In this document: piece by piece, positions 1,287 through 22,964 of the stretch | Numbering within the stretch: position 1 is the first letter of the stretch | How the letters are laid out: every line of letters begins with the position of its first letter | From: Blastococcus atacamensis | Lineage (GTDB): Bacteria; Actinomycetota; Actinomycetes; Mycobacteriales; Geodermatophilaceae | Length of the DNA: 64,000 bases | Reading direction: 5' to 3' | Assembly (NCBI RefSeq): GCF_002938425.1 | Contig: NZ_POQU01000010.1 | Span: 1-64,000 of the forward strand | The notes under the pieces: model-generated | Told to the model about the DNA's origin: nothing | The model's database searches: none | The model's input: only the letters and a program-made list of their open reading frames with translations | Position numbers and translations under genes: made by a program

Positions 1287-2066
1287 ATGACGCGGACCGC
1301 GCTGCTGCTCCTGGTGGCCCTCGCCCTCGCCGCCTGCGGTGGAGGTGGCGGTGGCGGTGCTGCGCCGCCGGCCGAGGAGCTCGGCGACGTCCGCGGCGAC
1401 TGGGTGGTCACCGAACTCCGCCGGAAAGGTGAGGTCGTGCCGATACCGGCGGCCACCGACGGCTCGCTGAGCCTCGACGACCGGCTGAGCGGCACGGCCT
1501 TCTGCAACGACTTCGGGGCGCAGGACTACCGGATCGAGGACGACCGGCTGGTCGTGCAGGACCTGGCGCAGACGCTGATCGGCTGCGCGCCCGACATCGC
1601 CGGGCTCGAACGGCTCTACCTGGACGCCCTCACCGCCGCCGACGCCCGGCTCGCCCGGTCCGGCGACGGCCTGGTCCTCAGCGGCGGCGGGATCGACGTC
1701 CACCTCGTCCCCCGCCCGCCGGTGGCGGATGCCGACCTGACCGGCCGCTGGCAGCTCGCGGCGGTGATCACCCGCGAACTGGCGTCGTCGCCGATGCAGC
1801 CGGGTGAGGTCGAGCTCCGCGCCGACGGGACCCTGGCCGGCACCACCGGGTGCCGCGCCGTCCGAGGTACCTGGCGGGTGACCGACGAGCGACTGACCAC
1901 CGTCGACGTCGTGCCCGACGGCGAGTGCGCGCCGGAGTTCGCCGAGCAGGACGGTCACGTGCTCGACGTGCTCCGCCAGGGCGGCGCCGTCCGCATCGAC
2001 CGCGGCCGCCTCACCCTCACCGCCCCCGACGGCCTGGGCCTCCAGTTCGTCCGGCCCGAGCGCTAG
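1287..2066 (+). CDS. META-domain (HslJ-like) lipoprotein
   Basis: A 259-residue predicted lipoprotein. Residues 1-17 form a signal peptide ending in a lipobox (ALALAAC, Cys17), followed by a run of Gly. Two META/HslJ-like units are visible: about 31-140 (GDWVVTEL, a Cys-containing core, then LIGCAPDI) and about 150-259 (GRWQLAAV, TTGCRAVRGTW, QFVRPER). Each carries paired Cys typical of this family. HslJ-type proteins are tied to heat shock or antibiotic resistance in other bacteria; the role here is unknown. A GTG 15 bases upstream is an alternative start, but the ATG gives a normal signal peptide. The gene converges on guaA. Confidence 0.75.
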   Translation: MTRTALLLLVALALAACGGGGGGGAAPPAEELGDVRGDWVVTELRRKGEVVPIPAATDGSLSLDDRLSGTAFCNDFGAQDYRIEDDRLVVQDLAQTLIGCAPDIAGLERLYLDALTAADARLARSGDGLVLSGGGIDVHLVPRPPVADADLTGRWQLAAVITRELASSPMQPGEVELRADGTLAGTTGCRAVRGTWRVTDERLTTVDVVPDGECAPEFAEQDGHVLDVLRQGGAVRIDRGRLTLTAPDGLGLQFVRPER

Positions 2067-3728: not shown

Positions 3729-4856
3729 TCAGCCTCCGATGACGAGGTCGACCCGCTGGAACTCCTTGAGGTCCCGGTAGCCGGTCTTGGCCATGGTGCG
3801 GGCCAGCGCACCGAAGAGGTTGGTGCGCCCGTCGGCGGACTCCGCCGCCCCGAGCAGCACGTCGGCCAGCGAGCCCGCCGGCCCGACCGGCGCGGAGGTG
3901 GCGCCGCGCGGCAGCCGCGGGTGAGCCGCCACCGAGTCCCACCAGACGCCGCCGGCGGGCGCCTCGGCGGCGATCCGGAGCGGCTCCCCCAGCTGGACGG
4001 CGTCGGCCCCGCAGGCCAGCGCGCGGGCGATGGCGCCGCTGGTCTCGATCGCACCGTTGGCGATGACGTGCACGTACCGGCCGCCGGTCTCGTCGAGGTA
4101 GTCGCGGCGGGCCGCAGCGGCGTCGGCGATCGCACTGGCCAGCGGAACCCGGATGCCCATGACGGCGTCGGTGGTCGAGTAGGTGTCGGCCCCGACCCCG
4201 ACGATGACGCCGGCCGCTCCCGTGCGCATCAGGTGCAGCGCGGTCGTGTAGTTCGCGGCCCCGCCGACGATCACGGGGACGTCGAGGTCGGCGATGAACT
4301 CCTTGAGGTTCAGCGCATCGCCCTGGCTGGTCACGTGCTCGGCCGAGACGATCGTGCCCTGGATGACGAGCAGGTCCACGCCGGCGGACAGCGCGGCAGG
4401 CGCGAGCTGCTGGGTGTGCTGCGGGGAGACCCGGATCGCCGTGGTCACCCCGGCCTGGCTCATCTCCTTGATCCGCGCGGTGATCAGGTCGGTCTTCACC
4501 GGCTCGGCGTAGACCTTCTGCAGCAGCGCGACCGGCGGGGCGCCGGCGGCGGCCGCAGCGGCGATCTCCGCGTAGACCGGGGCCGGGTCCTCGTACCGGG
4601 TCCACAGCCCCTCGCCGTTGAGCACGCCGAGCCCGCCGGCCTGGCCGACGGCGACCGCGGTGGCCGGGCTGACGACGGCGTCGCTCGGGCTGGTGATCAG
4701 CGGGATGTCGAACCGGAAGGCGTCGATCTGCCAAGCGGTGGAGACGTCGTCGACGTCGCGGGTGCGCCGGGACGGGACGATGGAGACCTCGTCCAGGTCG
4801 TAGCCGCGACGGGCGGAGCGGTTCAGCCCGATCTCGACGGTGTCACGCAGGCTCAT
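3729..4856 (-). CDS. guaB3: GuaB3-family IMP dehydrogenase-related protein
   Basis: A 375-residue TIM-barrel protein of the IMPDH/GMP reductase superfamily, without CBS domains. The order ([10 protein letters not shown]-like N terminus, [36 protein letters not shown]) matches actinobacterial GuaB3. The loop that carries the catalytic Cys in IMPDH reads [13 protein letters not shown] at about 222-234 and has no Cys. Standard IMPDH chemistry is therefore unlikely. Cyanobacterial GuaB3 has been reported as a GMP reductase, but those proteins keep the Cys as far as I recall. The start lies 2 bases after the guaB stop, so the gene is translationally coupled; its role in guanylate balance is inferred from context. 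Confidence 0.88.
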
Positions 4857-8463: not shown

Positions 8464-8503
8464 CGAGAGGGCCCGGTCCAGAGTTCTGGACCGGGCCCTC
8501 TCG
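8464..8503 (+). terminator. Strong hairpin terminator after whiB-type gene
   Basis: A perfect 18-base stem (8464-8481 with 8486-8503) and loop agtt start 16 bases after the stop. There is no T-run, as is usual for actinobacterial terminators. Confidence 0.85.
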
Positions 8504-8516
8504 CGTCCGCCGGGGA

Positions 8517-8592
8517 TCCTGGCTCACCGCACAGGGTCCTGGCTCACGGTCGACAGTGAGCCAGGACCCCGAGTGATCAGGTCAGCTGATCA
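8517..8592 (-). repeat. 76-base structured element, copy A (behind groEL)
   Basis: The element abuts the groEL stop codon. Conserved boxes tcctggctcac (8517-8527), gggtcctggctcac (8534-8547), gtgagccaggaccc (8556-8569), tgatcagg and ctgatca are separated by variable loops of 6, 8, 4 and 4 bases. Box 3 can pair with box 2 (14 bases) or with box 1 (11 bases), so two hairpins exclude each other. A second copy with the same box lengths lies behind glmS at 21002-21077. Confidence 0.8.
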
Positions 8593-10251
<1,659 letters not shown>

Positions 10252-20975: not shown

Positions 20976-21001
20976 GACCCCAGTCTGCCGTCTGATCGAC
21001 G

Positions 21002-21084
21002 TCCTGGCTCACGGCGGTGGGTCCTGGCTCACCATCGGCGGTGAGCCAGGACCCTTGATGATCAGGAGACCTGATCATCAAGGG
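21002..21084 (-). repeat. 76-base structured element, copy B (behind glmS)
   Basis: The same boxes as copy A (8517-8592): tcctggctcac (21002-21012), gggtcctggctcac (21019-21032), gtgagccaggaccc (21041-21054), tgatcagg, ctgatca, with equal spacing but different loops. The last hairpin is extended to a perfect 15-base stem (21052-21066 with 21070-21084, loop aga). It shares bases with box 3, so the two stems also compete. It ends 2 bases from the glmS stop. Confidence 0.82.
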
Positions 21085-21086
21085 TG

Positions 21087-22964
21087 TCACTCGACGGTGA
21101 CGGACTTCGCCAGGTTGCGCGGCTGGTCGACGTCGAACCCGCGGGTGTCGGCGATCTCGCACGCCAGCACCTGCAGCGGCACGGTGGTGACCACCGGCGC
21201 CATCAGGGTCGGGGTGCGGGGCACCCGGATCAGGTGGTCGGCATAGGGGACGACGTCCTCGTCGCCCTCCTCGGCGATCACGATGGTGCGGGCGCCGCGG
21301 GCGCGGACCTCCTGGATGTTGGAGACCACCTTCCCGTGCACCGAGTTCCGGCTCTTCGGCGACGGGACCACCACGATGACCGGCGTGCCCTGGTCGATGA
21401 CGGCGATCGGCCCGTGCTTGAGCTCACCCGCCGCGAAGCCCTCCGCGTGGATGTAGGCCAGCTCCTTGAGCTTGAGCGCGCCCTCGAGGGCCACCGGGAA
21501 GCCCACGTGGCGGCCCAGGAACAGGATGGTGTTCGCATCGGCCAGCGAGCGGCCCAGCGCCCGGACCGGCTCCATCTGCTCGAGCACCTTGGTCACGGCG
21601 TCGGGGAGCCGGCGCAGGTCCTCGACGATGGCGGAGATCTCGTCCTCGTACTTCACCCCGCGCACCTGGGCCAGGAAGAGCCCCACCAGGTAGCAGGCCA
21701 CGATCTGGCTGAGGAACGCCTTGGTGGAGGCGACGGCGATCTCCGGCCCCGCGTGCGTGTAGAGGACCGCGTCGGACTCGCGCGGAATCGTCGACCCGTT
21801 GGCGTTGCAGATGGCCAGGACGCGGGCCTTCTGCTCCTTGGCGTGCCGCAGCGCCATCAAGGTGTCCATCGTCTCGCCGGACTGGCTGATGACGACGACG
21901 AGCGTGGAGCGGTCGAGCACCGGGTCGCGGTAGCGGAACTCGCTGGCCACCTCGACCTCGACGGGGATGCGGGTCCAGTGCTCGATGGCGTACTTCGCGA
22001 TCAGGCCGGCGTGGTACGAGGTGCCGCAGGAGACGACGAAGATCTTGTCGATGTCGCGCAGTTCCTGGTCGGACAGGCGGACCTCGTCGAGCAGCAGCTC
22101 GCCGCTCTCGCCCAGGCGACCGAGCAGCGTGTCGGCGATGGCCTGCGGCTGCTCGGCGATCTCCTTGAGCATGAACCAGTCGTAACCGCCCTTCTCGGCG
22201 GCGGCGGCGTCCCAGTCGACCGTGTAGGCGACCGGCTCGGCCGGCGTCCCGTCGAAGCCGGTGACGGTCAGGCCGCGGTCGCGGTCGATCTCCACGACCT
22301 GGTCCTGGCCGAGCTCGCGGGCCTCGCGCGTGTGACCGATGAAGGCGGCGACGTCGGAACCCAGGAAGTACTCGGGCGTTCCGTCGGCCGTCTCGCCCAG
22401 GCCCACCACGAGCGGGCTGCTGCGGCGCGCGGCGACCAGGGTGTCGGGCTCGGCGACGTGCGTGGCGACGAGGGTGAAGGCACCCTCCAGCCGCCGGCAG
22501 ACCGCGCGCATGGCCTCGGCGAGGCGGCTCTCGCCCTCGGGGGTGGCCCGGTAGACGGCGGCCAGCAGGTGGGCGACGACCTCGGTGTCGGTCTCGGACG
22601 TGAACTCGACGCCGTCGGCCTCGCACTCGGCCCGGAGGGCGGCGAAGTTCTCGATGATGCCGTTGTGGATCACCGCGACGGTGCCGTCGGCGGAGACGTG
22701 CGGGTGGGCGTTGCGGTCGGTCGGCCCCCCGTGGGTGGCCCACCGGGTGTGCCCGATGCCGATCGTGGAGTCCGGGAGGGGCTGCTCGACCAGCGCCTTC
22801 TCCAGGTTGGCCAACTTGCCCGCCTTCTTGGCGGTGGTCAGCTCCCCGTCACACAGCAGAGCGACGCCCGCGGAGTCGTATCCGCGGTACTCCAGCCGAC
22901 GGAGGCCCTCCAGGACGACGTCCAGCGCGCCCTGCGGACCCACGTACCCCACGATTCCGCACAT
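21087..22964 (-). CDS. glmS: Glutamine-fructose-6-phosphate aminotransferase (isomerising)
   Basis: Makes glucosamine-6-phosphate, the first step to UDP-GlcNAc. 625 residues. Met1 is followed by nucleophile Cys2 (CGIVGYVGPQGA). HTRWATHGGPTDRNAHPH is the glutamine domain, two SIS domains follow (SCGTSYHAG, VVISQSGETMDT, VPSPKSRNSVHGK), and the C terminus DQPRNLAKSVTVE has the sugar-binding Lys. glmM precedes it by 85 bases on the same strand. No glmS ribozyme fits in that gap. Confidence 0.97.
   Translation of the reverse strand: MCGIVGYVGPQGALDVVLEGLRRLEYRGYDSAGVALLCDGELTTAKKAGKLANLEKALVEQPLPDSTIGIGHTRWATHGGPTDRNAHPHVSADGTVAVIHNGIIENFAALRAECEADGVEFTSETDTEVVAHLLAAVYRATPEGESRLAEAMRAVCRRLEGAFTLVATHVAEPDTLVAARRSSPLVVGLGETADGTPEYFLGSDVAAFIGHTREARELGQDQVVEIDRDRGLTVTGFDGTPAEPVAYTVDWDAAAAEKGGYDWFMLKEIAEQPQAIADTLLGRLGESGELLLDEVRLSDQELRDIDKIFVVSCGTSYHAGLIAKYAIEHWTRIPVEVEVASEFRYRDPVLDRSTLVVVISQSGETMDTLMALRHAKEQKARVLAICNANGSTIPRESDAVLYTHAGPEIAVASTKAFLSQIVACYLVGLFLAQVRGVKYEDEISAIVEDLRRLPDAVTKVLEQMEPVRALGRSLADANTILFLGRHVGFPVALEGALKLKELAYIHAEGFAAGELKHGPIAVIDQGTPVIVVVPSPKSRNSVHGKVVSNIQEVRARGARTIVIAEEGDEDVVPYADHLIRVPRTPTLMAPVVTTVPLQVLACEIADTRGFDVDQPRNLAKSVTVE

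Follow-up and report, generated by a model that had tools for sequence, protein, structure and literature searches.

Inverted copies of a composite palindromic repeat of the Geodermatophilaceae enclose a gene for a predicted nuclease

Two copies of a short intergenic element lie in the genome of Blastococcus atacamensis, one behind groEL and one behind glmS, and they raise the question of what kind of sequence this is and how it came to occupy the ends of two such different genes. The window analysed here, meaning the whole stretch of DNA in which both copies were noticed, comprises 64,000 nucleotides (contig NZ_POQU01000010.1, positions 1 to 64,000). Dispersed palindromes are found in many bacteria, and the enzymes with which the literature consulted connects them are RAYTs of the HUH type (PMC2817692, PMC6006769), while some repeat families are without such an enzyme (PMC3733652). 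The known REPtrons do not seem to move as a unit (PMC6006769). Here we describe a composite, modular REP-like palindromic repeat family of the Geodermatophilaceae, of which the two window copies are members, and an association of this family with one gene, called X, which lies between copies of the repeat in inverted orientation. Such paired copies round a predicted nuclease gene suggest a previously unnoticed way for repeats of this kind to spread.

The repeat is built of modules: an H hairpin (GATCAGG-N3-CCTGATC with a variable outer stem), a C hairpin (13-base arms flanking an 8-base loop), and then either a third arm, referred to as the half, or a second H. The sequence-only reading had described an element of 76 bases at 8517-8592 (copy A) and 21002-21077 (copy B), and its description is correct base for base: boxes of 11, 14, 14, 8 and 7 bases are identical between the copies, the spacers of 6, 8, 4 and 4 bases are constant in length and free in sequence, the third box is complementary to both the first and the second, and a longer stem of 15 bases is present in copy B. 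The 76 bases are real, but the repeat itself extends over 83 columns; likewise, both copies are genuine, but two is an undercount, since the Blastococcus genome holds 31 sites. With groEL and glmS on the minus strand, the order in mRNA sense is stop codon, H, C, half, and the outer H stem of copy A overlaps the groEL stop codon (Table 1).

Table 1. Positions of the repeat modules and adjoining genes in the window, and of the second hairpin family F2 at other loci
Feature	Position	Strand	Remarks
Copy A, whole H-C-half element, groEL 3' end	8515..8597	-	R1 match E 3.0e-19
Copy A, H hairpin core GATCAGCTGACCTGATC	8575..8591	-	
Copy A, C hairpin	8535..8568	-	arms 8535-8547 and 8556-8568; loop 8 bases
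Copy A, half arm	8515..8527	-	
groEL, upstream of copy A (mRNA sense)	8593..10239	-	Pfam Cpn60_TCP1
Copy B, whole H-C-half element, gap between glmS and next gene	21000..21082	-	R1 match E 1.3e-22
Copy B, H hairpin core	21060..21076	-	stem extended to 15 bases
Copy B, C hairpin	21020..21053	-	arms 21020-21032 and 21041-21053
Copy B, half arm	21000..21012	-	
glmS, upstream of copy B (mRNA sense)	21087..22964	-	Pfam SIS domain
F2, groEL slot	L080 ~4645-4720		
F2, glmS slot	G092 L365 ~1990-2038		
F2, further loci	L306-L335		

A separate hairpin, strong and poor in U (GAGAGGGCCCGGTCCAG..CTGGACCGGGCCCTCTC, window 8464-8503), lies 3' of the convergent gene that faces groEL, a WhiB-like gene by eye, and its position is retained in other Geodermatophilaceae.

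The family is not a product of chance, since the 13-base arm GTGAGCCAGGACC has 39 exact occurrences genome-wide against 2 for a reversed-pattern control, and the H core GATCAGN5CTGATC is found at 38 sites against none for its control. A covariance model, R1, was built from 55 copies; searched against the genome and its relatives, the check that the sequence-only reading had proposed, it found further copies in both. In the Blastococcus genome the 31 distinct sites comprise 22 H-C-half and 9 H-C-H elements; all R1 matches there are composite elements, and isolated exact 13-mers are rare. The earlier statement that no named family resembles the element agrees with an Rfam scan, which gave no match at gathering score and a sub-threshold list of miRNA-type noise. 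No paper on this repeat, or on X with palindromes, was found in the open-access literature, a scope outside which most subscription journals fall. Variants of the modular plan also occur: at L292, from 1501 onward, at least four half arms stand in tandem with a 20-bp period, adjoining a C hairpin, and shorter arrays of half arms are seen at L276 and in contig C69 of G006.

Spacing is fixed and loops are free, as the first description had it, and in the 55-copy alignment the helices covary. Stem cells pair in 88.5% of cases and 134 cells have changed on both sides, compared with 66 in shuffles, both figures leaning upward because copies entered the alignment only if C passed a pairing filter and the H core was matched. 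The outer H stem, to which no filter was applied, is paired in 65% of cells, whereas shuffling the partners gives 54%, and none of 2000 shuffles reaches the observed value. The C hairpin has a mean energy of -30.7 kcal/mol and H one of -14.9 kcal/mol, with few Us. In a strand-specific test, the C stem contains 13 G-U and 13 A-C cells, that is, no bias; these equal counts do not tell an RNA hairpin from a DNA hairpin, and a role as RNA of one strand is not supported. The sequence-only reading had seen in the two alternative pairings a possible switch between two hairpins. The half pairing does have a mean probability of 0.30 and is preferred over the C hairpin in 17 of the 55 copies, but C is favoured on average (0.66), the preferred pairing varies from copy to copy, and 9 of the 31 genomic copies have a second H and no half at all. 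As a general function of the repeat the switch is not supported, and we regard it as highly improbable.

GroEL of this genome matches that of Blastococcus sp. TF02-8 at 98%, in agreement with its place in Blastococcus. R1 has matches in all 23 genomes of the genus and, across the Geodermatophilaceae, in 98 of 112; at the level of the order it has them in 52 of 298 genomes, nearly all of them Geodermatophilaceae; within the order, the repeat is almost confined to this family. One Blastococcus genome (G003, 99% complete) has a single weak match, where the other congeners examined have at least two. The arms come in two dialects, CTGG, found in B. atacamensis, and CTCC, found in many congeners, and 13 of the 17 genomes with at least 10 exact arms are at least 90% of one type. 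The dialect switches in all three arms jointly, even at one and the same gene end occupied in two species. Comparison of the 31 elements of B. atacamensis with the 27 of genome G022 gave 8 common sites in the same orientation, where about 0.5 would be expected given an estimated 1580 eligible gene ends, extrapolated from the window. The pair around X, with differing neighbours, makes up two of the eight, which leaves six true orthologous gene ends, still far above expectation. At all eight, both window copies included, the arms of the two genomes are of different dialect. In the variable columns the six orthologous pairs are slightly more alike (0.52) than other pairs (0.44). These switches in place at conserved gene ends constitute a clear case of concerted evolution.

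The unpaired half changes in step with the other arms, an observation that a protein half-site shared by all arms and copying between repeats predict equally well. It is worth considering that the repeat is an array of binding sites for a chromosomal or regulatory protein, with its three arms, spaced 20 and 21 bp, on one face of the helix. Exact arms indeed lie always 21 bp apart in inverted pairs and always 20 bp apart in tandem pairs, in lists compiled without regard to spacing, and both the half-arm arrays and the joint change of all arms would fit. The outer H stem, however, is arbitrary in sequence yet complementary, which is not what a shared half-site would lead one to expect, and the neighbouring genes are varied and form no common regulon. 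We judge such an array to be a decidedly unlikely explanation of the repeat.

Genes were called with a gene finder that had learned codon usage from the window, and none of the 31 copies in B. atacamensis falls within one. Of the 22 H-C-half copies, 18 have on their H side the 3' end of a gene reading into the element, their H core lying 1-57 nt past the stop codon (median about 10 nt). The flanking genes of the 22 are convergent in 12 cases, in the same direction in 9 and divergent in 1; the 107 other gaps of at least 60 bp in the fetched loci divide into 53 in the same direction, 47 divergent and 7 convergent. The elements of G022 follow the same pattern. The neighbours are diverse and include genes for GroEL, GlmS, FlhB, an aminopeptidase, a P450, carboxyltransferases, a sigma factor and a pterin-binding enzyme.

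This placement, together with the stability of the hairpins, points to a possible function in RNA at gene 3' ends by analogy with Streptomyces, in which structured transcript ends lacking Us are known (PMC8269248). As in such U-lacking intrinsic terminators, a stable GC-rich hairpin with few Us stands shortly past the stop codon, at a comparable distance; unlike them, the present hairpins belong to a dispersed repeat family and are known from sequence alone. Past stop codons, the hairpins would be tolerated or used as 3'-end structures, either as U-poor terminators or as barriers to exonucleases. One could go further and suppose that the repeats are host 3'-end structures and nothing else, U-poor terminators or stabilisers of RNA that ordinary recombination has spread, with X an unrelated gene that came to lie between two of them by chance. 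Much of the above is in keeping with this: placement 1-20 nt past stop codons, shared use by convergent genes, the energy of the C hairpin and its few Us, neighbours that are varied housekeeping genes, and a likeness to the Streptomyces ends, for which a median distance of 66-76 nt from the coding sequence is reported (PMC12207403). It leaves the genome-wide dialects unexplained by any ordinary process, and it has to account for the repeated enclosure of X described below.

In the B. atacamensis genome, two elements stand 1.16 kb apart with their halves facing inward and one gene between them, X, with a product of 331 aa (L034). The same layout, with different neighbours, surrounds an X homologue in G022 and G230; inward-facing element pairs about 1.1-1.3 kb apart contain X in G002, G128, G118, G066, G092, G006, G007 and G113, and X with both elements is also present in G031. 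There are thus at least 12 units in 12 genomes, each with inverted copies about 1.2 kb apart and one gene X, a count ascertained in that most units were found through inward element pairs among the matches listed. In each unit examined a single gene lies between the two repeats, and element pairs in the same orientation contain no X. By their outer neighbours, the twelve units occupy at least 7 sites, one shared by B. atacamensis, G002, G066 and, on one side, G006, a second shared by G118, G128 and G031, and single sites in G022, G092, G007, G113 and G230; given the noise of tblastx at high GC, only flank matches of about 180 aa at 70% identity or more were used. The G092 unit sits in the glmS gap, a slot with just one element in B. 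atacamensis (copy B), G002 and G022. Between copies, likeness is higher within a unit (0.82) than from one unit to another (0.65).

The unit in G230, a genome from another family of the order (82% complete), consists of two strong matches round X on one 3-kb contig (L287/L303), next to dnaK; from a contig of that length, contamination and transfer cannot be told apart. No copy of X was present in phage records and none was confirmed in viral contigs. Two further inward pairs of similar spacing, L369 (2047-3496) and L375 (2973-4407), enclose a metal-hydrolase-like gene instead of X, adjoining an Fpg/MutM-like gene at the same locus in two species. Paired repeats can accordingly enclose genes by position alone, and these two pairs would be the chance bracketing expected if the repeats were host 3'-end structures only; the enclosure of the same gene X at no fewer than 7 unrelated sites is hard to reconcile with that expectation.

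The protein encoded by X is predicted to consist of an AbiEi-like winged helix followed by a PD-(D/E)XK nuclease domain of the Vsr/EDxHD-like type. Its N-terminus matches AbiEi in PADLOC (2.4e-21, residues 4-175), and Pfam AbiEi_4 was found in all 13 members of the X family, below cut-off in that of B. atacamensis. Invariant among 13 aligned sequences are E203, Q221, D235, E246-x-D248-G249-xx-K252-Y253 and E269-K270-R271. The AlphaFold model has a mean pLDDT of 63.5 and is confident only for residues 1-50 and about 201-320, its middle part being unreliable. Aligned with VIA-align, the C-terminal domain of the model gave Z scores of 11.1 with I-Bth0305I, 10.2 with ngo0050 and 10.0 with Vsr, and the N-terminal domain one of 6.2 with AbiEi. 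A Foldseek search with the model returned nothing at E 0.001 or better, and the C-terminal domain had no family match at the sequence level; the single match of an X profile among sequences of solved structures, a spidroin at E 0.71, was taken as chance. A nuclease activity of X is thus a prediction from modelled fold and conserved residues. X would share with the EDxHD homing endonuclease I-Bth0305I and with Vsr the predicted C-terminal fold and conserved acidic residues, and with the AbiE antitoxin the N-terminal winged helix of AbiEi; it differs from I-Bth0305I and Vsr in having that AbiEi-like domain and an ExDGxxK motif, and, whereas I-Bth0305I is carried in an intron, X is enclosed by palindromic repeats. 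The AbiE antitoxin gene has the gene of the AbiEii nucleotidyltransferase toxin beside it; in the units examined, X stands by itself between the two repeats. Proteins of the AbiEi/DUF559 type, now annotated as antitoxin-domain or hypothetical proteins, would thereby gain a likely biological context.

Eight distant homologues of X were found by protein similarity and not by way of repeats, and six of the eight lie between inverted repeats unrelated in sequence (L382 and L389 in Tsukamurella, L386, L387 and L388 in Arthrobacter, and L089 in Modestobacter); the remaining two, L381 and L385, have no enclosing inverted repeats. Among 223 genes of 0.8-1.3 kb used as a baseline, the inverted-repeat score reached at most 25 in the absence of X or a known element pair. 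The enclosed homologues score 48 (L389), 40 (L386), 35 (L382), 32 (L387), 27 (L089, marginal) and 22 (L388). The last is within the baseline range; an array of near-identical units flanks L388 on one side and inverted copies flank it on the other. The repeat of L386 occurs at 39 places, that of L389 at 20 and that of L387 at 11, and solo repeats related to those of L382 lie between genes. That distant homologues of X are enclosed by unrelated repeats is a further point against host 3'-end structures with X between them by accident, an account that we now consider unlikely.

The reading we lean towards, with modest confidence, is that the repeat is a composite REP-like element, retained at gene 3' ends, that forms one system with X, a predicted DNA-binding nuclease encoded between inverted copies. 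X would recognise the arms and cut or nick at or near the repeats, and repair copied from another repeat would both spread and homogenise them, much as a homing nuclease drives conversion. Cutting by a nuclease with repair from another copy would account for the uniformity of dialects, the retention of elements in the same slots, the difference between single element and unit at one site, and the absence of target duplications. All four features fit recombination of other origin as well, and mobilisation by X is to that extent inferred. X might instead be a selfish gene of the homing type that inserts into repeats, using them as target and flanks, with the spread of the repeat due to some other cause. 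Its closest fold is that of a homing endonuclease, I-Bth0305I, and in G092 the unit fills a slot that elsewhere holds a single repeat; but the flanking copies are complete inverted elements, where the interruption of one element would leave two halves, and the greater likeness within units than between them is as expected if the copies move or convert together. An insertion of this kind is in our judgement improbable.

Whether a Vsr/EDxHD-like nuclease, and not an HUH transposase, drives mobile palindromic repeats across the Actinobacteria, each lineage having its own repeat and a matching enclosed nuclease gene, seems to us evenly balanced. If this is true, extragenic palindromes have a second enzymatic means of spreading, unrelated to the first, and an explanation would be on offer for repeat families of which no transposase is known. 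With a nuclease of non-RAYT fold enclosed by unrelated inverted repeats in several families of Actinobacteria, the spread and uniformity of such repeats could be tested in organisms without RAYTs.

With REPs, BIMEs and REPtrons (PMC2817692, PMC6006769) the present family shares extragenic palindromes in a mosaic of alternating orientations, mostly downstream of genes (31 intergenic sites), a species-specific sequence, co-varying arms and a gene within inverted copies. The element-X-element layout of the twelve units recalls REP-RAYT-REP, but the enzyme is an unrelated one: in the enclosed gene a predicted Vsr-like nuclease takes the place of the HUH enzyme, and the repeat unit is a fixed 83-base composite. 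The GT[AG]G foot of the REP class is absent from the 55-copy alignment, and a search for RAYTs (Y1_Tnp, PF01797) gave no match in the B. atacamensis genome, while 5 of 14 control genomes were positive. CGTC-tagged REPs (PMC3733652) are likewise palindromes downstream of genes with no known transposase, and CGTC is found at the arm end both there and in the CTCC dialect; there, however, the tag is unpaired beside a stem of 8-9 bp with a loop of 4-5, whereas here it is paired within a 13-bp stem with an 8-base loop, so that membership in that class was rejected. CGTC repeats are reported from five phyla, Actinobacteria not among them, and apparently lack a dedicated transposase (PMC3733652).

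Two other classes were considered and set aside. The DNA uptake sequences of Neisseriaceae (PMC3630211) likewise show genome-wide dialects, a constant core and inverted pairs at gene ends, but number hundreds to thousands of scattered motifs, compared with about a hundred units here, all in composite elements; single motifs scattered in genes were not seen, in keeping with the rarity of isolated exact 13-mers. The H-C-H copies are inverted repeats throughout, as are the terminal inverted repeats of MITEs, but no target-site duplication was apparent, the longest k-mer shared between flanks being 4.02 against 3.94 when shuffled. No clean empty site was found, and searches for carriage on plasmids or phages gave no match to the repeat.

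A second family of hairpin repeats, F2 (core CGCANGCTCGCGGCGGGNCC), has 23 copies in the B. atacamensis genome and 0-30 in other Blastococcus genomes, and most copies are centred 34-38 nt away from the 3' end of a gene. In some slots F2 replaces or adjoins the present repeat (Table 1), and the two families show no significant anticorrelation (Spearman -0.09, p 0.69). At L054 (about 1540-1580), a member of F2 seems to split the H module of an element, which would place one repeat family inside another.
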